NCBI GenBank assembly: GCA_946699065.1
Contig: CAMPDV010001423.1
Coordinates: 62,001-126,000, forward strand
Reading direction: 5' to 3'
DNA from: Loxodes magnus
Taxonomy: Eukaryota > Ciliophora > Karyorelictea > Loxodida > Loxodidae
Length of the DNA: 64,000 bases
Position numbers and translations under genes: made by a program
Shown here: positions 761-58,185 of the stretch, one piece after another
Layout of the letters: each line of letters starts with the position of its first letter
How positions within the stretch are numbered: the first letter of the stretch is position 1
Notes under the pieces: generated by a model
What the model was told of the DNA's origin: nothing
What the model saw: only the letters and a program-made list of their open reading frames with translations
Database searches by the model: none

Positions 761-1523
761 ATCTTTAACTGAAAGATGAAATTCTGACAATTAAAGATAA
801 CCAAAAATTTTTTTAGTTAAATTTTAAATTTAAGCCCAATTTATATATTTATCAACTATTTATTATTAATTAATTTCCATTTTCAGATTCAGATAGATAT
901 TAAATAAAAAATTATCTTAGCATCTTATCTCAATATATTTGAAATGAAAATAATTAAAAAATAGCAGCAAATGAACAAAATAAAGTTAATAAATAAAGGG
1001 AACAAAAAATTACATTCTAATAGTAAATTAAATATAATTAATTAGTTACTTATTGATAAATATTTTAATACATCACTTAAAATTATCTATTATCTATAAG
1101 ATTGTTTTCAATTATATATAGCTATATCAATTAATTACTATATAGTTTGGTTATAAAATGATGATGATTTTATTAATTGTGAAGATATAAATATTTAATA
1201 CAAAAATTGAAACAACTATACTTTTACTTTTATTTAATAATCATTTTATTTTTAATCTTTTATTAACTAAGCAGCAAACTAAAATCTAGCAAGTATTATT
1301 ATATGTTTTCTATCATATTGGATAAATAAAAATTCTCTTTATTTTTTAATTTTTATTAGAGTATTAAAATAATAATTAAAAGAACATCTAAATTTAGATT
1401 TTATTGAGTCATATTATCTTTAATATTTGTAATTTTAATTAGAATATGCTTTAAAATAGATTTAGTTGAATATCCATTTAATTTTTAATAAAAACTATTA
1501 AGTGAAAATGTTAAAAAGTTTCT
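761..1523. other. AT-rich intergenic sequence
   Basis: More than 80% A+T with homopolymer runs. Nothing could be recognised in any frame. It presumably contains the 3' flank of the LRR gene that ends at 1524. Confidence 0.5.
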
Positions 1524-6639: not shown

Positions 6640-7346
6640 ATAGTCTTCATCTTGCATGTAGCGTTCCTAACTATTTCTCCAAGGATTAAGATTTGAATTA
6701 AAGAATTTTTTCTATAAATTTTTCCGCTTTATGTTGGATATATCCTAAATAGTTTTCTAAAAATATCTTATTTATTCTTTCTTTAAATTTCGCTTAGTTA
6801 GTAGCAGTATTTTCATTGGTGTTATTTATTGCACACGTAGCATTTTATTCTTCTTTTAACCTATTATTCCTGTAACACTTATTTAATTTAAATTTACTAC
6901 TTATTTTAAATAAACGTTTACTGTTTATTTTAATTTGAGGCTTCATTTTCTATTTCCATAGGATCTGATTAATTCTGTTAAATCGAAAATGGTGTTACCT
7001 GAATTTATTATTAAATTTAAAGAATTCTTTGTTCCAGTTTGTTTTCTATTTCTTATGATGATTAATATTGTTTCTCAAGTAAAGACGTTATTAGTTTTTC
7101 TAATTTTTCTACTTTATCAGTGAGGTATCTATTTTTAAACATAAACTCTTTTAATGACTTAGATAGTATTTCTATTTGAGTTTGTGTCGGAAGTTTTTTT
7201 AGTTCTGGATTTCCAAGTGGTTAATGTTCGTCATATCAATCATATTTCTCACTTTCACTCATTGTAATTATTTCGCTTTTTTATTTTTTAGAGAATTTTC
7301 CTGTTTAAATATTTTGTTCAAAGTTCTGATTTTTCTTAGAAGCCAT
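6640..7346 (-). CDS. LINE ORF1 protein, copy a (coiled coil + zinc knuckle)
   Basis: Open from ATG 7344-7346 with TGA read as Trp. Order: basic N-terminus (MASKKNQNFEQN), a coiled coil in the first third (KVEKLEKLITSLLEKQ), a linker with the family motif DPMEIENE, and a CCHC-like zinc knuckle at 6804-6842 (CYVCNKQHQWKYC, spacing CX2CX3HX4C) whose Trp is TGA. Proteins of this type are nucleic-acid-binding ORF1 (Gag-like) products of LINE elements. The 3' boundary is uncertain because the frame runs into sequence also claimed by other element fragments. The frame is intact from start to knuckle, so this copy is either young or under selection. Confidence 0.6.
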
Positions 7347-10599: not shown

Positions 10600-11468
10600 C
10601 TTACATAAAAACAATTTATAAAAGAAATTAATTTCCGTTAATTGCGCTAATAATAATAATAATAATATACTTAAAGTTAGTAGAGTTTTGCATTCTCTGG
10701 AATTGCAACCAGTTCCTGCGGACAGTTTTTTTAACGTGGGTGTGATCCATGACCTTTTTATTAAGTGGAAGGTTACCACTGCAACCGTTCAAGTGGTCTT
10801 GCAAAAAGCTTTTATTTGTAGATCCCTGTTGGAGTTATTCATATTTTATTGAGTTGTTTCCATGTTCTTTTCTGCTCTTATTCGTTTATTTTCTTTCATT
10901 ATCAACAGTTTTTTAAAATATGTTGATTTGATTTGCAACATCAACAAAGTTTGTATTATTGTCTTTATTTCGTTCTTTTTTATGTTAATTTATTTTCTAT
11001 ATTTTCTAATCTTTTAATGAAACTTGTAGCAATCATTTCTTTTTCTGGATTCAATTCTATTGGTATTTTTTCTATTTCCATTTTTGTGTCGTATTTAAAA
11101 TTTTATTATGATTAAGTTCAGAGTTATTCTTCCGTTATTAATTTGCTACAAATAAGTTATCTTCTAAGTATTAGTAATTCGTTGTTCTAATCTTCTATGT
11201 TACTCATTAGTTCCCGTATTTTTTCGCCTAAGTTGTAAGTTGTTTCTTCATAATTTGAGATTACTTTTTACATTTGATCTAATTAAATTTAAAGTTTTTG
11301 ATTAGTTTCGTTTTTAGGTTAACTTATCTCTATTTATCCTACCATAACTTTACCTTCTGAAGAAGAGCTTGACTCCTCCTATTGTTATTATTTTTTCTAA
11401 ATTTCTTTTGCCGCTTTTCTCTTTAGGTTTCTAAGTTAATTTTTTGAGAGTCGAAGAGATTAATCCAT
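10600..11468 (-). CDS. LINE ORF1 protein, copy b (coiled coil + CCHC knuckle)
   Basis: Open from ATG 11466-11468 when TGA is Trp; start and knuckle share one frame. Order: MDQSLRLSKNQ basic start, Ser/Glu stretch, coiled coil (about residues 60-115, ELMSNIEDQNNELLILRRQL), family motif KMEIEKIPIE, then a perfect CX2CX4HX4C knuckle CWCCKSNQHILKNC at 10905-10946 with Trp encoded by TGA. A basic tail GHGSHPRQKNC follows. The tail resembles that of copy f at 21220-21290. It stands about 340 bp upstream of an ORF2 fragment in the same orientation, the normal ORF1-ORF2 order. The C-terminal end is uncertain. A (TTA)n microsatellite lies at about 10648-10672. Confidence 0.65.
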
Positions 11469-11599
11469 TTTTTTTCCTACAATTATTTAATTGCGCTAAT
11501 ATAAATAAGTTATTGCTTTATAAAGTATTTCTTTAAATGAGATTCTGATCAAAGGAATTATTATTTTATCTTGTAAATAAAAAATAATAATAATGAATG

Positions 11600-14062: not shown

Positions 14063-14880
14063 ACTTCTTTTTCTAATAGTAAATAGGTTTCCGTTCAGTG
14101 TTTCTTGTTTTTCCCGTCAGATATTCCCATCGCTCGATGGAAAGAAAGCCTTTGTCTTGCATCAGATTGATCGTCAGATTTCTCTTCTTGTTTTCTCTTG
14201 CTAAGGACATTTCTGTCATAGGTACCATTGACTTTTGCAAATTTTGCATAGTTTTCTAATTTCTTTTGAGTTTTAGTTCTGTTTTTTCTTTCTCTGTTTG
14301 CATTAGAAATCTGCCACTCTATTAGGATTCTTGTCGGATTTATTCAAGTTTTATTTCAATCTCTGTATTAATATATTTTTCGCTCATAATTTTTTGTCTT
14401 ATTCTTCAAAATTTATATGTCATTTTCCATTATCCAATCTCTTTCTCTGGCCATATTTTGTCCAGTAATGTTTCTAAATTTTCATCCTAAATGTGATTCA
14501 TCATCTTCAATGTGGTTCTCAACTTCTTCTTTTAATGCATTTGATTTTATTCAAGAGTTCGGACTCTTATTATCAGTGTTTATATTAGGTCTTGCTCCTA
14601 AGTTGTATTCATATTTTTTATATCTTTCTCGCCCAATTCGTTCCAATTTGTTCTGGAGTTAAAGTGACTTATTCCAAGTTATTAATATTATTAATTTCTC
14701 TTAAATTATTTTGGCTTAATTTAAACGTCTCTATCTATTGTTGTTTTCTCTTTTCAGATGGAGGGTTAGGCCTATGATGAATTTTATAGCATGACCTTTT
14801 TACTTTGGACCTTAATCTTTTTGTGTTTCTCCTTTCCAAGAGTTACCCATCTTAAAGAACTCCCATTTTGATTTATATAT
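14063..14880 (-). CDS. TE-encoded ORF of unknown type, copy c
   Basis: With TGA as Trp this stretch stays open for over 200 codons. Recognisable blocks are ERIGRERYKKYEYNLGARP, GWKFRNITGQ, INPTRILIEWQISNANR, YAKFAKVNGTYDRNV and FHRAMGISDG. The last four blocks have counterparts in the inverted copy at 17500-18310. GC content is higher than in flanking DNA. The protein is basic, rich in Asn and Arg, with no zinc knuckle seen. It may be an ORF1 of a different LINE lineage or another element's protein; no family could be named. Trp codons are both TGA (GWKF) and TGG (IEWQ). Confidence 0.5.
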
Positions 14881-17499: not shown

Positions 17500-18310
17500 A
17501 AGCTCTTAACGGCGGATTTATCTTGGGAGAACGCAAGAAGGTTAAGACACAAAGTTAAGAAACCAGGATATAAAACCTCCATAGGTGTGACTCTTTCTGA
17601 CACATCACCTGAAAAGAGAAAATAATGATAAGCGAGAAAAACTGGAACTCTGCCAAAGAAATTTATAAAAATCCCACCTATTAATAACCAGGAATAAGAC
17701 AAATTATTGCCGTAACAAATGGAACGACTTGGATGAGAAAGCTATAAAAGCATAGATCCAACTTAAATGCAAAAACTAATATTAGCACTGATAAAAAGAG
17801 TCTGAATACTGGAAGAAGGCCAAATACAACAAAATTAAAAAGTTGAAATCATATTTAAGATGATTAATCACATTTTGCTGAAAATTTAGAAACATTACTG
17901 GACAAAAACGACCAGAGAAAGAGTTCAGATAACGACACCTGAATTTTTTAAAGAATAAGATAAAAAATTGTGGGCGAAGAACAATTTAATATATAGAATG
18001 AAATAAATTTGGAAAAAATCCGACAAGAATCTAAATAGAATGGTTGTGTTCCAATGGAAATAGAAAATATAATAAGTAAATTAAAACCAAAAGAAATTAG
18101 AAAGCTATGCAAAATTTGTAAAAATCGATGGAACCCTTGACAAAAATGTCCGTAACTTGAGAAAATGAGAAGAGAAATTTAAAGATCGATCTGACTCAAG
18201 CCAATAATTTACTTTCCGATCGAACGATGGGAAGATCTGACGGAGAAAATAAGAATTGCTGATGAAAGCCTATTTACTATTAGAAAAATGAGACTTATAC
18301 AAATATTATA
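17500..18310 (+). pseudogene. TE-encoded ORF of unknown type, copy d (inverted relative to copy c)
   Basis: Homologous to 14063-14880 on the opposite strand. Shared blocks are NISTDKKSLN, HIQDDQSHF, CWKFRNITGQ and KNPTRIQIEWLCSNGNR. At least one frame change separates HIQDDQSHF from CWKFRNITGQ, so this copy is broken while copy c is not. The TGA Trp of WKFRNITGQ and the TGG Trp of IEW are conserved between the copies. The two copies point away from each other and enclose LRR fragment C and ORF1 copy e. Confidence 0.55.
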
Positions 18311-20479: not shown

Positions 20480-21310
20480 TAAAATAAAATAGCTTTAAAA
20501 AAAGATGCAACAAAACATCTGCCTTTCTAAAAATTAAATAAGGAAAGCTAAAAAAGGCGCTGCAGGAGTCACGTAAATAGGAAAGGTAGGAATTAGAGTC
20601 AAGTTCATCTTCACAAATCAAAATTATGACAGGTATAGTTGAATCAAATAAACATAAAATAAAAATCCAAGAAAATCTACAAGTCAAGATTGAGGCAAAG
20701 CAAGCGCAAATATTTAAATACGAAGAAAAAATTAAAATCTATAAAAAAGGGGCTAAAAATTTTCATAGAAGACTAAAATAATGAGCATACAATATTGAAA
20801 AATTAACTCATCAAAAATAAATTAGTAACAGAAAATTAATTCTTAAAATAATTCTAATAAAATTTTAAATATTCTTCAAAATGGAAGTCAAAAAATAGCC
20901 ACTATCGTGTGAAAAAGAATTTAATCCATAAAAATAATATACAAATATCAAATGTAACATAATTAAAATACTTGAAAAAAAAAAGATTTTTAACTTAAGT
21001 ACAAATTAACAATAATAAAAAAGCTCTGTAAGTACCGCCAATCAATTATCTTCTACTAAGAAACTGCCAATAAATGAAAAAAATTGAACGAAAAAGACAA
21101 ACAAAAAAATTGAAGTCGACTTAATAAATTATGAATAAAGAAAACAGGAATATATAGATAAAAACTCCTTGTGAGACCTACTGAAGTATATTAGTTGTAA
21201 GCTGCCATTTTTTAAAAAGGATCATGGTATATATCCATATATAAAATGGCAGAGTGAAACTGGTTGCAACCCCAGCAATCTCAAAAACTCTTAAAATTTA
21301 GTTAAAAATA
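20480..21310 (+). CDS. LINE ORF1-like protein, copy f
   Basis: One open frame across the segment with TAA/TAG = Gln and TGA = Trp. A helical N-terminal part (KIEAKQAQIFKYEEKIKIYK) is followed by the family linker KMEVKKQPLSCEKEFNPQ and a C-terminal tail KKDHGIYPYIKWQSETGC. The tail parallels that of copy b. No clear CCHC knuckle is visible, so the copy may be diverged at that point. Start and end are uncertain. It probably encodes a nucleic-acid-binding ORF1 product. Confidence 0.45.
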
Positions 21311-30620: not shown

Positions 30621-31249
30621 AGAGTTTAGTGTAAGAAGACTGATGATAAGTGTTTTCTGGATTTCTCTCCTTCTTCGCGGAGGTGATATAAAATCCCTTT
30701 GAAGCCTTCAACTATTTATTGATTACTATAATCCTTTTATTAAGTTCAGATGCAGAAATAAATAATTAATTATTTAGTTTTTTAAAGTTATTTTATAGTT
30801 AAATTCAATGAGTTTTACAATTTATACTTGCTTTCAAAATATAAGTCTATATTAGAGAAGAGAGCTATGGTAATTAATAATCTTAATTTGGTCTTAAATA
30901 TTGATTGCTTATATTAGGAATATTAAAGTTATAAAGCTATACAATAATCTTAACTTATTTCTTAATTTTAATATTTAGAAGCATCTTTATCTATATTTTA
31001 GTGAAATTCCATGTATTAGAGATTACTGTTAATAAGCAGCTTTTATCTTTATAATCTTATTTATTTTCAATGTAATATTCATATATAAATTAATATTTTA
31101 TTCATAATGCGCTAATAAACTTTTATTTCTTAGAAAATTTAAAGTTGTAAGAATCTAAAAAATACAAATAAAGCTTTGAAGTTAGCTAATAAAAAATAAA
31201 TCTAAGAAATATAAACTAAGCAATATATAATAATAGGATTATAAAAAAG
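30621..31249. other. 5' flanks of two ORF1 copies, otherwise AT-rich
   Basis: 30621-30720 is GC-richer and probably still element leader sequence. 30721-31249 is AT-rich with nothing recognised. Confidence 0.35.
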
Positions 31250-32060
31250 ATGGATAGTTGGAACAAAGGTTTTCTTATCGAAAAGATTACTCCTAATACT
31301 ACTGATTAATCTTTCTAAAATTAACAAACATCAACTAAGATTTAAAAGAAAAAATATTACTAAATATCAGAAGAAAAATAACTACCTGCAAAAATTCCTA
31401 AAAAGAGGCATATATTTAATCAACTAATGAATTTAGACAAGGAATAACTCGTGGAGATTATTTTCGACTACACAGATAAAATCGAGAATCTCGAGCATTA
31501 TGTTATCAGTTTATAACAAGATTTATAAGATCATGTGGACGATGAGAAGCCACACACTGAATTTGTTACAAAATAGGATATTAATAACAGATATAAATAA
31601 ATAGAATGCGATATTGTTAGACTAGATGAATAAATGGGAATAGACTTTTAAAAATATGAAAATGCCTTTTAGCAAGTTAAAGAAATTAAGCAAAGGTTAG
31701 AGAAATTAGAGAGCTAATAGCCATAAAAAAATCAAGATTCAATGATAATAGAAGAACAACCATGACTTAAGAAAAATACTTCAAAAAAAAGTTCTACATA
31801 TGTGGCAGTCAATATCATCTTTGAAGAAGATGCTAGGGAAATAAGGAAATTAGAAAAAAGATTTGAAATGAATTGACCATGTTTTATCCTTCCTCGGATG
31901 GTTAATTATGACGTAAGAAGATAACTCCAAGACCGTTCGGAAAGCTCGGAAGTGAACTTGGGTGGAGACACCGGGGAGCCCGAGACCCTGTAAAAGGTAA
32001 TACAAAGGGTTATGGATCTTTTAAGGGAACATTTTATTAACCTTAAAATTTGTAATTTAA
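31250..32060 (+). CDS. LINE ORF1 protein, copy g, in two overlapping frames
   Basis: ATG 31250-31252 opens a 171-residue ORF ending at TGA 31763-31765: MDSWNKGFLIEKITPN, a coiled coil (DKEQLVEIIFDYTDKIENLE, then KEIKQRLEKLES) and the linker DSMIIEEQP. The zinc knuckle follows in another frame whose ATG (31762-31764) overlaps the stop as ATGA: YICGSQYHLWRRC at about 31795-31833. Its Trp is TGA and its first Cys is replaced by Phe. A basic tail comes next (RKKITPRPFGKLGSELGWR). This is either a frameshifted single ORF1 or a genuine coupled two-frame arrangement. The segment is GC-richer after 31880. Confidence 0.6.
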
Positions 32061-34612
32061 TTTAATATAATAATAGGATTGGAAACATATTCTAACGATT
32101 AAGATATTTATAATAGATCTTAAATTTCATGTAAGAATCTTATTAACTATCCATTTTGCTCTTTCTTAGTTCAGTTCTAAATTTTGAGTTGTTTATAAAA
32201 GTTTAAATATAATATAGTTTAAATTAGCAAGATAAATAGCAAATAAAAATAAATAAATAATAATATTTCAAAATGATATATAATTTGTGAATATGATATG
32301 CTTATTTTTAAATTAATAGTTTAAGTTATTATCATAAATATAACACTATAATTATTAAAACATATTTTATATAGCATTAGATTATAATCTTAAATGCATT
32401 TATGATTATCTTAGATATTATGCTAGATTTAATAATTTTAAATAACTAAAAGTATTATATAATTAAATTAAAAATATCTATTTTATAAACTTTATTTTAA
32501 TATCTCTTCCAAACTGCATAACTTATTATAATTTTAGCTATAGATGTACCATCATTTTTACGTAATTTATATAATAGCAATTTAGTAATTAATAAACTAA
32601 ACAAGTCATACAAATACTTAAAGCAAACGTAGTCTAAATGTTAGAATAAATATAGTTTGGCTTTATATAAAACTTTTGTATGGAAACTATTAAAAGTGAG
32701 AAAGGGGTTACTATATATAGTTGTGGATTCAATATCCTTATTTTAAAGAATAAGTTTAAATATCATTTATATAATTTTTGTTAAATAAATCTATAATAAA
32801 ATTTTAGATAAATCGTGCTATCCATTTTGTAAAAGATCGCAATAAATAGTCTTAATAAATTTTAAAGAACAAGTAATTCTTATTAAAATAGTATATTAAA
32901 AGAAATAATAAATATTAAGTTTATCAATCCTAATCTAAAAGCTTAATTATAAATTTAGAAAAATTAATTAAATTATCTTAAAATATTAACTAAAATACTT
33001 TGACTTTATAAATGTTTTCTATCTTATTAAGGTTTTTTCAATTTATCACAAAGCAAGAATTAAAATATTATAATACTTTATAAGAATTTTTATCATAAAA
33101 CTTATTATATTTCCTTAGAAATAAAAAATGTAAAGCTTATAAATTAAAGCAATACCTTAGAATAATTCCGTATTTTCAAAATGAGTATATACATAGAAAC
33201 TTAAAAGAATAAATATAAAACTTCTTAATACACAAAATCATAATAATTATCTCTTTTAAGAATTATTTTTGCAAATGAGTTAAAATTATAAAAATGCTTT
33301 TTATTTAGAATATTTATTTATATAAGTTAGTATGAAAGTAAAATAAGTTTTTATTCAAAATTTTGTTTAAAGATTAGGTAAATGATTTTTATTAATTTGA
33401 TTTAAGTATAATAATAATTATTTTTATTTTAAACTTTTCTATTATATAGTTATTATTATTAGCTTATATATAGAATTCTTTTTTCGAATTTGCTGAATTT
33501 TACAATTTTCTTTATCCAATAGATTCATTTTAGGTTAATAATTTATTTTAATCTTAAATTACTAATAATTTCTTTATAGATATTTTACTTATATCTTTTA
33601 TAAACTTATCTATATTTTATTTTATATTTGCATTTATCTTTTATTTTTTAAGAACATTAACTAAGAGGTTATTAACTATTTTATTAGATTTTCAAAAGGA
33701 ATTTAAAATTATAGATTTAACTAATATAGCTTTAAAAATCCTTCTCTCTTTATGTTTTTTTAATCTAGTTAAGATTTTAAATTAAATTATAGATTTTATA
33801 TATGCTTTTACTTCTAATTTAATCCTACTTATCATAAACGTCTTTTTAAATTTATTTAGATTAATTAATAAATCTAGTGTCTTTCTTTTGTTTAATATTT
33901 CAACTATTTTTATTTGTTTGATATCTTAAAAATCAATTCTTAAACAGTCTTTTACCTAATTTTTTTTATAAACTATTAAATAATAAAATAAATGGATATA
34001 TCTCCTCTAATATCCTTCTAACATATTAATTATAATTATTATAATTAGCTATACAAGTATACTAACTTTTGTGATTATTCTTCAATATATTAAATATTGG
34101 TTAGGAAATTAAAATTTATTTACTCTCTAATTCTTAATACTTCAAAAGTTTAAAATATCATCTGAAAGATTCTTAATTTTTATTGTTTTTCTAAATTAAT
34201 TAATAAATTATTTAGCTATAAAATTTTCTTACGAATCTAGATTATTTTGAATTTTATAAAACTGAAGAGTAAAAATTTTAATTAAAGTTTATAAAAATGA
34301 TTAATATCTCTAGGTTTTATGTATACAATTATCAGATGTCTAGTAATAAAATTCTTAATTTTGATCTAATCATTTTATCTTTTTTTGGTATGCTTAATCA
34401 ATTAATTTTGATTAATTATTTGAAATTAAATAATGTATACTTCCCAGAAAAGTCGTTTAAAAAAAATTTTAGAGAAGGTGAAAATAAAAGTTATGCTTTT
34501 ATATGAAATTTGATATGATTTTCTTAATTTAAGAATTTGATTATTAATTATAGTGTTTTTATTAATTTATTTTTTAGTTAAAATAAAGGATTTAATGGAA
34601 TTTTCAGCTTGG
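32061..34612. other. Long AT-rich intergenic stretch
   Basis: About 2.5 kb of AT-rich DNA in which I recognise nothing. A 69-codon plus-strand frame at 34297-34506 has no protein-like features. Confidence 0.5.
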
Positions 34613-47050: not shown

Positions 47051-47467
47051 GCCTAGAAGGAAGGAATGAGAAATTAAGAAGGGAAATAGAGCAGCAAGAC
47101 AGGATTTTCTAGAGATAGTGAAGGAAGTTAAGTAAAGTCTAACTGGGAATTTAATAATTGAAATAGCAGAGTAAAGAAACATTATAGAATGATTTGATGG
47201 AATAAGTAACTTTAATATTTAAAAATCAAGATATTTAAAAAAAGCAAAACAAAGCTTCAACTGTGAAAGGTTAAGCATTACGTAGTCAAATCCAGAAAAA
47301 ATAATTGTAGCAGGCCTGGATACAGTAAGAAGTATCAAATCAGCAAGAAGTACTAATAATAGAAAAATAAAGATAAACATCTTAATTGCAGAAGCGATAA
47401 TTTGAAAAACAATAAACATAAGCGAATCAATAAATATAGGAATCCTAAATTTCAGCTACTAATTAAA
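47051..47467. other. Spacer upstream of the actin fragment and OTU-RING gene
   Basis: The minus strand translates to a very hydrophobic stretch (47219-47419), but this follows from T-rich DNA and no membrane protein family is recognised. Confidence 0.3.
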
Positions 47468-49995
47468 ATGACATTTTATCATATACCAATAGATTTATAA
47501 ACAAAAAGACTATTTAGCTTTAATCAAGATAAGTAATTTCATGCTTATTTGATAAATACAACCATAAAAATTTAAAGGAAGAGCAAATTCAAAGAATAAA
47601 GTAATAATTTGACGTTTATAGGCCATTAGGCAAAGATGGGAATAGTTACTATAGAGCTGTAGGATTTGCATACTTAGAGCATCTTATTAGACCCACTACT
47701 CATTTAAATGAGATTTAAGAGTTTATAAAATTAAGGAAAAGCAAAAAGGGATATTCTTCCATAAAGCCTGGAAGTAATGCAAAAGCAAATGAAGAGCATT
47801 AATTCTTAAGGAAATAGTTCATACAATTATTGCTAAACCTCCATCAGAAAAAAAAACATTAATCTAATCCAGGAGCTAGAAACTTTCTTTGCTGAAAATT
47901 AGAATAATTATGATCAAGCTTTAGTCTGGAAAATGAGAACACTTGCTGCTAACTATTTGGAGATACATTAGGATGCTTTCAAACATCGAAGAGAAAACTT
48001 TGAAGAGCAGATTAAGGACATTTTAACAATGGGAAAAGAGGCTGATAAGTTAGCAATAGGCACCTTACAAGTAGTTCTAAAATTTAAGATGCAGGTTGTA
48101 GTGATAGATACTGAATATCTCAACTCCCTATAGTTAGATTCAATAGTTGTGACAGGCAACTTACCAGTTATTTTTATTCTATATAAGCCTGTACGCTTTG
48201 ACTTGATATAGGACAAATATCAATCCAAAGTTGATGGATTGAAAGAGGGAATCTACATAAGTTAGAGGATAATTCCGCAAGGATATGACTGGTATAAACA
48301 ACCATTTTATATAGAAGTATAAAGCTAAAAAGAGCAATCACTTATATTAAAGGACTAAAACTACCAATTTTTAGCAAAAGTAATCAAGGATTATGAATGC
48401 TTAGCAAAGTGAATTTAGAAAAAAGATTTGAAAAAAAGGAACTCTGATAAGTATCTGTATCATATATAAAAAGAGGATTATCAATCAAAAAAAGAGGATT
48501 AAATCAATCAAAATTAAAAGAAAAATAGCTGTATAAGCAATAAATGCTAGAAGCTAATTGAAGAAGACGAAATTATTTTACTAGAGTGCTAGCATTACTT
48601 CTGTAAAGAGTGCTTCAATGAATATATTAAATAAACTACTGATGGAAAGTATATATGATATGAAGGAGAGTTGGAAAATAGTTTTCAATGTTAGATGTAG
48701 AAATGCTAAAATCTGGTTAGAATTGAAGACGTGTCAAGGAACTTGGAAAAAAGTGAGTTTGAATTTTACCAAAAGCTTGTTAATATCAGGAAGTCTAATT
48801 TATAGATATCTCAATAATAAAAATCTGAGCAAAAGTAAGATAAGACTGAAGAATCTCAAAATCAAACAATAAAAATTAAGTAAAAGAAAGTAAAATAATA
48901 ATGATGCGATAGTGACAAGTGCTTGAAATAATCAGCAGAAGAAATTGATTTAATTACACTTCATTGCAAACATTCGTATTGTAAAGAATGCTTTATAGAG
49001 CATATAAAGATAGCAACTAATGATAGATATATATGCTATGAAGGAGAGTTGGAAATTAACTTGAAGTGCTAAATACAATATTGTAATTATATCATTAGAG
49101 TTCAAGATATTCAAGGAGTTCTAAATAAGCAGGACTTTGATAAGTATTCATCCATGACCTTTAAAAGATGGCAATATTTATAAAGAGTAATATAGGGATC
49201 AGAAGCATAAACTTAGTAGATTATTAATTCGAAAGAGTAAGTAAAAGAGACAGTATCAGAATAAAAGCAGTAAATCTAATCTATCAGTAAATAAAGCTAT
49301 AAAGGGAAACAGAATGAAGGTGATCAATTAATACTAGAATGTGGACATCAATTTAGCAAAAAATTATTAATTAACTATTTAATGCTAGTCACTGAAGATT
49401 TACTAATATGCAACGAAGGAGAGAAAGGTTACAAAGCGAAATGCCAAGTTAAAAGTTGATAATATATTATATAATTAACTGATATCAAATAGGCTGTTGG
49501 TTAGGAAGAATTTGATAAATATAGTACATAAGCTGCTTAAAGAAAGCTGATCAAAGAAAATAGGTAGAGTATAATTAATCAAAGTCAGTAGTAGATATAA
49601 TAAATCTCTTCTTAGTGCCAAATGAGAAATTGTAAATAGCAAAACTAGAACAACTAAATAATTTAGCTAGATTGTAGCCATTAATTCTGCAAGTAATGTT
49701 TATGGTTCAAATTTAATTAGGCAACAGCTGGGTTTTTGGAATTGTTAGAAACAGATAGAATTTAAAAACCGGTGTGTGATCTGTGTACTTTACAATTGAC
49801 TGAGAATGATTACGTTAAAGTTTTTGGAAATTAGTTTTAGAAAAGAGAAAAAGCAAAGATACTCATGATTGAAGAAAGCCAGCAAGTGATTAATTAAGCT
49901 CTAATGGCTAAATAGCCAAATCAATAATAATTAGTACATTAGTAATAAAGTGATTAGAATTTCCATTGTGACTTACTCAAATGCTAGAATATTAA
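47468..49995 (+). CDS. Otubain-like / tandem RING fusion protein, 5' part
   Basis: Proposed start ATG 47468 (MTFYHIPIDLQ); the true 5' end is unresolved. From about 47545 the sequence follows the otubain (peptidase C65) fold: VYRPLGKDGNSYYRAVGFAY (47611-47670), then RTLAANYLEIHQDAFKHRR, MGKEADKLAIGTLQVVLKF and VIFILYKPVRFDLIQ. The catalytic Cys of 'DGNC' is Ser (AGT 47644-47646) and the His of 'RPGHYD' is Arg, so it is probably an inactive deubiquitinase. A nine-A run at 47848-47856 holds a one-base slip. RING-like units follow, e.g. ECQHYFCKECF, HCKHSYCKECF and DCSHQFCKQCL, separated by Gln-rich linkers, in one frame from about 47860 to 49995. TGA is Trp in AKWIQ and KSWQY. A retroelement interrupts the gene at 49996; coding resumes at 50942. 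Confidence 0.75.
49977..49995. repeat. Target-site duplication, left copy (19 bp)
   Basis: TCAAATGCTAGAATATTAA, identical to 50942-50960. The two copies flank the ORF1-type insertion exactly. Confidence 0.85.
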
Positions 49996-50028
49996 TTAAT
50001 TAATTTTAACTATAAGGGTTAGGGTCAT

Positions 50029-50062
50029 CTTTAATTAGAGGAAATGTTTCCTCAAATTAAAG
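50029..50062. repeat. Palindrome in the 3' region of the element
   Basis: Arms CTTTAATTAGAGGAAA and TTTCCTCAAATTAAAG with a 2-nt TG loop and one A-A mismatch. It lies 27 bp past the ORF1 stop on the minus strand, so in the element RNA it would form a 3'-UTR hairpin, possibly for recognition by the reverse transcriptase (inference). Confidence 0.7.
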
Positions 50063-50088
50063 ACTATAAAAGTTTTTATATTCAATAC

Positions 50089-50941
50089 TCAACTGTACAT
50101 GTCTTCATCTGAATCAATTTCAAACTGAGATAATTCTCCTTTCTCTTCAATAAGCTCATAGAATTGTTCTTCCATCTCCTTGTAATTTTTCTCCAGCTTC
50201 TCTAAACAAATTCTAAGGTCATTGTTGTCCTTTTAAAGCTATTAATTCTGTTACTATTAATTATTAAGATCCTGTTTGATTAGTGTCACACTTGAATCAT
50301 TTAATATCAGTTTCTTTCTGTAAATACCTCCAGAGTAGTTACAATATAGCCTCCTCGATGTTCCAAATTCTTTACGGTGCTGCTCAACCACTCTTCTTCA
50401 CTTCGGACATTACCTCCAAAAATGTCCAGCCTTTTGACAACAATAGCAACGTTTTATTAAAGGTTTGAATTAAAATTTTGATTCTGTTTACATTTTTTCA
50501 ATTTCCATCTTATCTGTTTGAGGTTAGTTTTTTTTGATTGGTAATTAATTTTCTTCTTTAATTTTCTATTGATTTGCTACTAGGTTTTTTTCTAATAGTT
50601 CAAATTAGGAAGTTAAGGCTTCAATTTAAAACTAAACTTTATTTCCCAAGTCTTGATCTTCCTTTTTTCTATCTTACAAAAGAAGCCGAAGATTCAAGTT
50701 TTCCGCCTTCAGGATCTATATTTCGGTATTCATTTTCTCAATTAATGAATAAAGCTAAATAATGTCTTGCTCGTGGGGTTTCTCAAGTTTTTTCAGTTTG
50801 CTAGGAAATTCCGTATTTACCAATCCTTAACAGGAGTAGATTTATCTTTTTTGAATTCTTGGTTCTTGTTAGTTAATTGAGACTTAAGATTGATCTTTAA
50901 GGTTAGAATTTAAGGTTTAGTTTCCCGGGTTTTTTCCATTT
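50089..50941 (-). CDS. LINE ORF1 protein, copy h (coiled coil, CCHC knuckle, acidic tail)
   Basis: From the element's 5' end to TGA 50089-50091. A first coiled coil (LYSLIEKMNTEIQILKAENL, then ALTSQFELLEKNLV) is followed by the family linker DKMEIEKMQTES and a perfect CCHC knuckle CYCCQKAGHFWRQC at 50407-50448, with Trp as TGG where copies a and g have TGA. A second coiled coil (DLRICLEKLEKNYKEMEEQF) leads to the acidic end DSDEDMYS. One frame change near 50820 separates the ATG-initiated first 40 residues from the coil frame. It is the most complete ORF1 in the window and defines the domain order for the others. Predicted to coat and chaperone element RNA. Confidence 0.75.
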
Positions 50942-50960
50942 TCAAATGCTAGAATATTAA
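50942..50960. repeat. Target-site duplication, right copy (19 bp)
   Basis: Identical to 49977-49995; here it is part of the host reading frame. Confidence 0.85.
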
Positions 50961-52247
50961 AGGCAGTAAAAAGATGATGTAAGAAGATCTAATTTATTTA
51001 TAGTGTAAGCATACGTTTTGCAAGAGTTTTATGATTAATAAATTATACAAAGAAACCTCAGAAAAAATGATAATATTTTAGGACTAAAAGGGATATAAAC
51101 CTTTTAAATGTTTTAACTGTAAGTATTAGCTAAAATTTAGATTAAGAAATCAAATATATTTAAGGGAAGAAAATTATAACTTTTTATATCAAGAAGCAAT
51201 CAATAGATATAATTGCATTCAAAAGAACTAAACTCAAGAATGATAATTCAATCAATGGCAATCAGAATAGCTTTTTAAATGCTTGTGGCCAAAGTGTGAA
51301 AAAACAATCTTATAAAACTTAAAAGTAACTTTAGCATGCTAGCACTCTTTTTGCAGAGTTTGTTTAATAAATTAAATTTCTAAAAACTTGGAAAACATAG
51401 ATATAGTTTGAGACCAGCAGCTGAGTCTGTATTATCTTTTTTAATGTCCCTAATACTTAAAGAAAAGGCAACAGTAAGAGCTGAATAGTATAATAGGTGA
51501 GAATATAATGAATTGGTACTTTTCAGCAATAATTGAAGAAGTTTAAGGCAAGCAGTAGTTGAAATAATATTTTAACAATATCAGAAAAACTAGCTAAGCG
51601 AGAAAAAATGCTTTAATTGCTAAAAACTACTAGATAATGAAGTGGCGTTCTAGGGTTTCAAGTAATCTTGTCAACATTAAATTTGCGATGAATGTCTCTA
51701 TTAAGAGTTTAACACTAATCCTTCGAAGCCTAAATGTTGCTGATGTAAAAAGAGTTATAATAAGCAAGTGGTTTAGGATATAAAAGAGTATCTAGAAAAG
51801 ATAGAAAAATGGTGAAATTGCTAGAATTCTGATAAAGATGTGCAGCAAAATCCTAAAATTCTATTACACTACTAGCATAAATTTTGCATCTGCTGTTTAT
51901 CTTACAATACAGGAAGTAAGTACATAGTATGCAAGCAAAAATATTCTAAAGAAGATATAAGTTAAATTGAAGAAGCTCAGTTTAAAATTTTAAATAAGAT
52001 GCAACCAAAGAGACTAGAATGCTAGTTATTCTTAGATTGCTTGCAAAAGAAGTAAAATATACAAAAGTATGTGATAATAAGCCTAGGCTGTGGACATGCT
52101 TTTAGTGATAATTGCTTAAGAATTTATTTACAAATGAGAATAAATCAGAACCTTAATATAAACTAAAGTATAATAAAGTGTTTGGCTAGTTATTGTAGTC
52201 ATTAACTGACATAAGAAGAAATAGAGAAAATTCTGAATCCGTTCTGA
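50942..52247 (+). CDS. Otubain-like / tandem RING fusion protein, 3' part
   Basis: Continuation of the gene from 47468. At the second target-site copy the frame reads CQNIKGSKKMMQEDL and completes the RING unit begun at HCDLLKC with QCKHTFC. Further units are CLWPKCEKTIL...CQHSFCRVC, CFNCQKLLDN...CQHQICDECL...CCWCKK, HYQHKFCICC and GCGHAFSDNCL. TGA is Trp in CCWCKK and KWWNC. A frame change lies between about 51500 and 51600 and can be repaired by an intron such as GTACTTTTCAG...TTGAAG. The stop is probably TGA 52245-52247. RING units bind E2 enzymes in E3 ligases; many Cys/His ligands are missing here, so activity is uncertain. Confidence 0.7.
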
Positions 52248-52313
52248 TTAAATGAAACCTTCAAATTTTTTTGCTAATTAATTTAATTTTTAAGTTTAAT
52301 ATAAGCTAAAAAA

Positions 52314-56949: not shown

Positions 56950-58185
56950 AGCTTGAAAATTCTTAGACAGGGCAGAACGGAGTTTTTATTCAAAGTTCTA
57001 CTTTCAATCTTCTAGGTTCTTCAGCTTTATCATAATGAGACTCATTTTGAGAACTGGACCAAAGCTCTCAAGCAGAAACTATTCTTAACTAAATGGTCAA
57101 CCTTAAAATCTTACGCTTTTAAAATTTATTACTAATAATTTAAGAACTGGATATAAACTCTCAAACAGAATGGAGTTTTTAGTCAAAGTTCTTCTTTCAA
57201 TTTTTAGGTTCTTCAACTTTATCACGATAAAATTTTTAGAACTAAACCAAAGTTCTCAAGTGAAACGGAGTATATACAACAAGTAGTACTTTCATTCTTT
57301 AATTACTTCAGCTTTTTCGCAACTCAAACTTATTTTGAGAACAAGAAACAATACCTAAGAATAACGAATTCCAAATCTAAATTCTTCTCACAACCTTACA
57401 GTTTTTTAGCTTTACCTCTACTGATACTTTTTTGGATAACTTGGAAAGAGCTCTCAAGGAAAACGGATTCAAAAATACTAATTCTTCCTTTAGTCTTTTA
57501 GTATTTCAGCACATTCGATTCTCAAATTATTTTTGAGAAAATATCCGAGTTCTCAAGGATAACGGATTCCAATGTTAATTTTCTTCTAGCAATCTTGAAG
57601 TTCTTAAGCTTATTCTCTACACAGACATTATGGAGAACATGGAAAGAGCTCTCAAGGAAAATGGATCCCAAACTTAAAGTTCTTCTTTTAGTCTTTTAGT
57701 ATTTCAGCACAATCGATTCACAGATTATATTTGAGAAAACGATTAGAAGTTCAAGAATTACGGATTCCATACTTAAAATTTCTTCTTACAGTCTTAAGTT
57801 TATTAGCTTTACCTCTACTAAGACTTTAATTGAGAACTTGGAAAGAGTTCTCAATGATAACGGATTCCAAATTTTAAATTCTGTTTTTTGTCTTTTAGTA
57901 TTTCATCACATTCAATTCTCAGATTATATTTTAGTCAAATAACAAGGATAACTGTTTCAAAATTTAAGTTCTTCTATCAATCTTTAAGTTATTAAGCTTT
58001 ACCTCTACTAAGAATTTTTGGAGAACTTGGAAAGAGCTCTCAAGGTTTACGGATTCCAAATTTTAATTTCTGCTTTTAGTCTTTTAGTATTTCATCACAT
58101 TTATTTCTCAGATTATATTTTAGAAAAATATCTGGGCTCTCAAGGATAACGGAACTCAACTCCAAAGTTCTTCTTTGTCGTGACA
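56950..58185. repeat. Tandem repeat array, units of about 100 bp with a palindrome
   Basis: Twelve or thirteen diverged units follow each other at about 95-100 bp. The landmark '(G)AGCTCTCAAGGANAACGGATTCC' or a variant recurs near 57065, 57160, 57255, 57350, 57450, 57550, 57648, 57746, 57848, 57940, 58033 and 58136. Many units contain GAGAAC...GTTCTC; the best is TTGAGAAC / GTTCTCAA at 57830-57854 with a 9-nt spacer. Alternate units are more alike (AAAGAGCTCTC against GAGTTCTC), suggesting a 200-bp higher-order unit. No reading frame is conserved across all units. Confidence 0.8.

Follow-up and report, generated by a model that had tools for sequence, protein, structure and literature searches.

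In a 64,000-nucleotide stretch of the Loxodes magnus genome (bases 62001–126000 of contig CAMPDV010001423.1, here C1423; hereafter the window), a gene encoding several RING units is interrupted by a 946-bp insert, which is probably a start-broken copy of a young, non-autonomous retroelement of the non-long terminal repeat (non-LTR) type, carrying an ORF1-like open reading frame (ORF) only and copied into the gene in trans by a long interspersed nuclear element (LINE). The insert has an empty paralogous site, is bounded by duplications, belongs to a high-copy family of full-length elements and contains no credible enzyme domain, and several divergent families of the same plan exist. An initial annotation of the sequence had already proposed an ORF1-only retroelement with a 19-bp target-site duplication, and the paralogue, the family and the lack of an enzyme domain agree with it.

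The repeat TCAAATGCTAGAATATTAA is exact on both sides of the insert and the identity ends there in both directions. Start-to-start spacing is 965 bp, as annotated, leaving a remainder of 2 modulo 3, so that element plus one repeat shifts the frame of the host gene. Among all exact 19-mer pairs 100–3000 bases apart in the window, this is the sole pair with a spacing of 965; the remaining ones lie at 57.4–57.9 kb in a tandem array, at 26.6 kb and at 48.7 kb between RING units. Long terminal repeats of its own, direct or inverted, were not found in the insert, which is bounded by the 19-bp duplication only. A 600-base query consisting of the joined flanks and one repeat gave five matches in the genome, namely one uninterrupted match on contig C708 and two pieces each on the insert-bearing contigs C1423 and C3008. 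In this C708 paralogue all 600 query bases align at 89%, with no insert and one repeat copy (18 of 19 bases), and the RING unit reads on uninterrupted, consistent with the annotated insertion into a coding RING unit. As the C708 site is empty and has a single repeat, the DNA was gained on the lineage of C1423 and C3008. These two contigs are 97.2% identical in the left flank, 97.7% in the insert and 97.6% in the right flank; divergence thus is equal inside and outside the insert, and the insertion is older than their separation. Moreover, the outer ends of two window elements are 19.7 kb apart, and 19.6 kb apart on C3008, which makes both contigs long homologous segments, either haplotypes or duplicates.

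The family to which the insert belongs is large. Counting its ends with 37-base patterns at up to three mismatches gave 655 five-prime ends, 585 mid-ORF segments and 670 three-prime ends, while the reversed patterns used as control gave 0; 5' truncation is therefore nearly absent. In a genome search, 40 of 42 matches span 940–946 of the 946 bases at 96–100% identity, including the window copy, although these matches come from the 40 best-scoring of 1611 candidates and are hence biased. The other two are pieces of one sister copy at 82–86%. This sister copy (L003, 724–1498 and 2438–2638) is itself interrupted by a young copy, i.e., a nested insertion. Thirty copies were fetched, and removal of 6 that share a flank with another copy left 24 sites, among which the pair L023/L025 also shares its site. 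Exact duplications of at least 14 bp were present at 15 of the 24 sites versus 1 of 552 mis-paired flank controls, and duplications of at least 10 bp at 19 of 24 versus 24 of 552. The 5' end is an A-run directly before the ATG in most fetched copies, and all 30 share one 3' end, in which the TTAA repeats vary in length.

In translation table 27 the consensus ORF comprises 283 codons, with one mid-frame TGA read as Trp (two or three in some copies) and a final TGA. No further TGA occurs in the last 100 codons ahead of the final one, which fits the depletion of TGA just before true stops that the main text of the published L. magnus work describes (PMC11441545). The ATG at 50939–50937 and the ORF lie in different frames in the window copy, whose A-run has 6 instead of the majority's 7 residues. 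Reading TGA as Trp, the frame is open from the ATG to the C-terminus in 12 of the 30 fetched copies, the window copy not being one of these; the scan flagged 13, one of them spurious (9 TGA), and may undercount because a near-exact C-terminal motif was required.

The predicted protein consists of a coiled coil, a CCHC zinc knuckle, a G-x-IYRKK hairpin and a second coiled coil, and its assignment as ORF1p is based on this combination of coiled coil and knuckle rather than on homology. No enzyme domain surpassed the Pfam cut-off in the ORF of the element, and at E values up to 1 five ORFs of the window gave weak, chance-like matches only, e.g., Peptidase_U49 at E 0.03 in one of them. The Pfam family zf-CCHC matched the knuckle at E 0.21, i.e., below its cut-off, and a profile of the five window ORFs matched the knuckle of TUT7, terminal uridylyltransferase 7, at E 0.0017 and those of retroviral nucleocapsids at E 0.045. 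A single-sequence search of solved structures with the ORF protein returned 0 matches. The AlphaFold model has low confidence (mean predicted local distance difference test score 65, predicted template modelling score 0.25) and displays the two coiled coils, a helix that follows the knuckle and a small hairpin at IYRKK; Foldseek searches with it gave 36 matches at E 10 and none at 0.001.

Regarding its class, the element shows variable duplications at dispersed sites, no long terminal repeats and a fixed 3' end with a short-repeat tail, all of which are hallmarks of the non-LTR type, while frequent 5' truncation, usual but not required in such elements, is missing. A short interspersed nuclear element (SINE) would have no coding capacity, whereas this element has the 283-codon ORF, open in the copies counted above. 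An autonomous LINE, in turn, would supply reverse transcriptase (RT) and endonuclease, whereas here the one ORF fills most of the element and shows no such domain.

The 946-bp element is not alone. Blast followed by a seven-seed profile, run on pieces of frames, located seven places in the window: the element itself, three places that served as seeds (10794–11201, 14066–14437 and 6687–7031), and the non-seed places 31654–31926 (E 4e-16), 17947–18282 and 21009–21194. Further relatives were found by profile scan in the flanks of fetched loci. Two of the window places lie in elements with duplications of their own, 834 and 824 bp long; the four others have no clear duplication, their best chance match in the same search being 12–13 bp. 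These two represent separate families, both of them young and full-length. All 40 scored matches of the 834-bp element (the best-scoring of 1967 candidates) span at least 822 of 834 bases at 97–100%, and all 40 of the 824-bp element (the best-scoring of 668) at least 819 of 824 bases at 95–100%; the window copy is part of both lists, in which some rows resemble one and the same insertion on homologous contigs. The 834-bp family is divergent, and many of its other copies stop 8–12 bases short of the 5' side of the window's 834-bp copy. The 824-bp element at 31241–32064 was also seen at 98–100% on contigs C3077, C1493, C7784 and C3008, so that the assembly may well contain several homologous contigs of this region.

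The proteins of the 834- and 824-bp elements are 20% and 25% identical to that of the 946-bp element, the related ORFs show 17–26% identity, and the 3' ends differ from family to family. A regular expression of the motif, applied to six-frame translations, had 32 matches, comprising four divergent relatives and family copies, and 0 in five shuffles. The persistence of knuckle and IYRKK at 17–26% identity is suggestive, and only suggestive, of a protein that has been kept, because the substitutions within the family look neutral. In 38 of 45 listed comparisons between families, the second codon position is the one that differs least; this signal was left unused as evidence, because out-of-frame comparisons behave likewise and the alignments were picked by protein similarity.

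Features of the window: positions, strands and the basis of each assignment
Feature	Position	Strand	Basis
Host gene, left part: RING units in one frame (table 27)	47267..49976	+	domain scan, contig comparison
Target-site duplication, left copy TCAAATGCTAGAATATTAA	49977..49995	.	exact repeat; single copy in empty paralogue
946-bp ORF1-only retroelement	49996..50941	- (sense; 5' end 50941, 3' end 49996)	full-length matches, end counts
(TTAA)n 3' tail, overlapping the duplication in part	49992..50003	-	compared copies
Hairpin of the 3' untranslated region (UTR), 16 pairs, one internal mismatch	50028..50063	-	fold z -3.7 for 96-nt 3' end
Terminal TGA, probable stop	50089..50091	-	preceding 100 codons without other in-frame TGA
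ORF1-type frame, 282 codons here (table 27): coiled coil, CCHC knuckle, G-x-IYRKK, second coiled coil	50092..50937	-	
GGIYRKK motif, common to divergent relatives	50311..50331	-	protein comparison, profile
In-frame TGA as Trp, table 27	50398..50400	-	translation
CCHC zinc knuckle CYCCQKAGHFWRQC	50407..50448	-	sequence
Target-site duplication, right copy	50942..50960	.	exact repeat; single copy in empty paralogue
Host gene, right part: more RING units; frame change near 51582	50961..52260	+	domain scan, contig comparison
Second ORF1-only element, 834 bp	10653..11486	-	15-bp duplications TATTAGCGCAATTAA at 11487-11501 and 10638-10652
Third ORF1-only element, 824 bp, frame-broken copy	31241..32064	+	16-bp duplications ATATAATAATAGGATT at 31225-31240 and 32065-32080
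Relic of related ORF, knuckle and G-x-IWREK	14066..14437	-	profile seed
Relic of related ORF	6687..7031	-	profile seed
Relic of related ORF, frame-broken	17947..18282	+	profile, best E 8.5e-10
Relic of related ORF	21009..21194	+	profile, E 3.2e-8

Potential enzyme donors are abundant in this genome. RT domains were present in all 150 scored candidates (of 3403), and about 2,700 RVT_1 copies are reported in the main text of PMC11441545. Our LINE survey covered 30 RT loci, all of one family (L031 aligns with the remaining 29 at 96–99%), and 8 longer stretches, two of which overlap those loci, together representing about four LINE families. The dominant LINE has ATTT repeats at its 3' end, along with a hairpin (z -3.6); L064 and L066 are two further LINEs, which end in TTAA repeats. 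A LINE ORF1 knuckle is present in 5 of the 8 stretches, without G-x-IYRKK following it in the residues shown. At L066, an ORF first considered as that of a LINE with the ORF1 of the 946-bp element was rejected, since it forms a separate element on the opposite strand; this ORF1-only-like ORF beside the LINE (about 900–1150, plus strand) has a 3' end that by eye resembles the element at 10.65–11.49 kb. The endonuclease region of L066 looks cut short. RT matches are spaced 2.5 kb apart on contigs C5131 and C20, where LINE fragments thus seem to be tandemly arrayed.

On this basis, a mechanism can be proposed. The sole gene of the element would encode the ORF1-type protein, and its RNA would end in the hairpin and the TTAA tail. 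Endonuclease and reverse transcriptase of a partner LINE could take up this RNA in trans, and target-primed reverse transcription into the RING gene would leave the 19-bp duplication. The protein may bind RNA, and it may promote the copying of its own RNA. Such copying in trans is in keeping with the duplications, the short-repeat tail, the 3' hairpin, the lack of an own enzyme and the many LINEs.

Several results weigh against this proposal. At 5 of the 24 sites the longest flank match is below 10 bp. LINE-copied elements seldom show a near-absence of 5' truncation, which may here reflect the short length of the element. Moreover, no LINE sharing the 3' end or the ORF of the 946-bp element was found among the approximately four families surveyed: one element copy, compared by blastn, had no match at E 0.01 in the 30 RT loci and only matches of at most 34 bases (E 0.05 or worse) in the 8 LINE stretches, and a search with the 3' end across all fetched loci yielded AT-rich fragments, with no convincing LINE among the matches listed. 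At their 3' ends, neither the TTAA-tailed LINEs (z -0.4 and -1.2) nor the 834-bp element (z +0.8) folds better than shuffled sequence, so that a shared 3' hairpin is no general rule here. Finally, nonsynonymous and synonymous changes within the family (139/60 private and 38/18 shared, with a ratio of 2.7 expected) show no clear departure from neutrality; these counts come from 23 of the 30 copies, in an alignment that is unreliable at the A-run beside the ATG. For the sister copy around L003, they were 87 and 45.

What the insertion did to its host gene bears on two other readings raised by the initial annotation, i.e., an internally eliminated sequence (IES) or a fresh null allele. When the flanks are joined at one repeat, the RING unit reads through, and in this the annotated restoration of the frame holds locally. 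Further downstream it fails: in the window copy the coding signal shifts frame again near 51582, about 620 bp away, so the joined frame is continuous only locally. C3008 differs at that place and has indels of its own; with indels in both insert-bearing copies, removal of the insert would not leave the frame whole. Moreover, two RING-unit cysteines of the empty C708 paralogue are missing from the window copy. Overall, the interrupted gene looks to be decaying. Upstream of the RING frame, at about 47527–47856, lies a match to the otubain-like (C65) peptidase family PF10275 (E 3.8e-11), and the region 47122–52260 on the plus strand appears to combine this domain and, further downstream, several RING units that are read in other frames. 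Because the match is in another frame than the RING units, a single gene joining both can only be presumed; such a gene would have a deubiquitinase plus ligase arrangement. Elsewhere in the window, a tandem array with a 198-bp unit (about four copies, 99-bp sub-period) occupies 57357–58153.

An IES would be removed during macronuclear development, and the coding-region site, the TA-containing direct repeats at its bounds and the locally continuous joined flanks are what one might look for in such a sequence. The assembly holding the insert has 705,730,643 bases, and its RT frames contain TGA, TAA and TAG codons alike, while the macronuclear assembly of L. magnus is given as 706 Mbp with table 27 in the main text of PMC11441545; from this match in bases and code we infer that the two are the same. 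Provided that this holds, the insert and hundreds of its siblings are retained in macronuclear DNA, from which an IES would be absent. The same text reports that a comparison of sorted nuclei found no classical IESs in L. magnus, and that mobile-element insertions appear as monoallelic indels, with which 504 interspersed repeats coincide (PMC11441545). Together with the further frame-changing indels in both insert-bearing gene copies, this renders elimination extremely improbable, and nothing found suggests that the insert is cut out as the working nucleus forms. The idea of a fresh, strain-specific null allele takes up the broken reading frame, which is real. It is nonetheless very unlikely, as C1423 and C3008 share the insert at 97.2–97.7% identity, a divergence beyond the heterozygosity of 0.6% stated for L. 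magnus (PMC11441545, main text), and as the window copy has also lost the two RING cysteines.

Other alternatives concern the origin of the family. It could stem from a host gene family of CCHC coiled-coil proteins whose mRNA was repeatedly retroposed, giving processed pseudogenes; the near-complete lack of a 5' UTR and the short 3' UTR would agree with this, short 3' UTRs being reported for L. magnus genes (PMC11441545, main text). We regard this origin as unlikely, since TTAA repeats instead of poly(A) form the tail, separate families have recurrent 3' ends that differ from each other and the copies number hundreds, although no search for a single-copy source gene was made. Less remote, but still doubtful, is a recent derivative of one LINE that would have retained ORF1 and 3' end and lost ORF2, in the manner of HAL1, the L1 derivative described as encoding ORF1p only (PMC5753468). 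The TTAA-tailed LINEs L064 and L066 argue for it; against it stand the fetched LINEs, of which none shares the ORF1 or the 3' end and whose knuckles lack the following motif, and the relatives down to about 25% identity, which are likewise ORF1-only wherever their ends are known. As only about four LINE families were seen, a parent LINE may exist. Within the reading of trans-copied ORF1-only elements, we tentatively consider a split system, in which separate, long diversified families replicate themselves with own 3' ends matched to an enzyme-supplying LINE, and in which coding is kept because the protein favours its own RNA.

Among the titles and abstract openings listed in literature searches, none describes ORF1-only elements in Loxodes, and the main text of PMC11441545 (supplements excluded) mentions neither ORF1, SINE, zinc knuckle nor nonautonomous. 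It lists 757 thousand copies of unclassified repeats amounting to 366 Mbp (PMC11441545). If ORF1-only families made up a large share of these, part of that mass would be explained, and a natural test of the role of ORF1 for elements without RT would be available. The insert further illustrates gene-interrupting insertions in the working nucleus of a ciliate without extensive DNA elimination. The novelty lies in how many divergent ORF1-only families a single genome contains and in their uniform full length.

Among known systems, HAL1 of mammals is copied in trans by L1. It is described as non-autonomous and as encoding only ORF1p (PMC5753468), as the Loxodes element does. HAL1 descends from L1, whereas no parent of the 946-bp element was found among the approximately four LINE families; the element is nearly never 5'-truncated, and its protein is encoded by several highly divergent ORF1-only families. 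HeT-A of Drosophila, likened here by its description, has a single ORF1, no RT and relies on another element (PMC4700185), but it sits at chromosome ends, whereas the Loxodes elements occupy dispersed internal sites with target-site duplications. By analogy, HAL1 and HeT-A are nearest in their way of working, a likeness of mode that does not establish membership in either. The L. magnus LINEs rnd-1_family-27 and -19 presumably inhabit the same genome, whose dominant LINE likewise has a hairpin and a tail of 4-nt repeats at its end. Unlike the element, they are 5–6 kb long and have endonuclease and RT (PMC11441545, main text); no shared ORF1 or 3' end was found between the element and the LINEs surveyed here. 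The EKA effectors of powdery mildew, derived from a LINE ORF1, likewise form a large family of ORF1 copies apart from ORF2 (PMC4641428). However, these are LINE copies in a degenerate and truncated state that the host has recruited, whereas the Loxodes elements are uniform full-length units with ends of their own.

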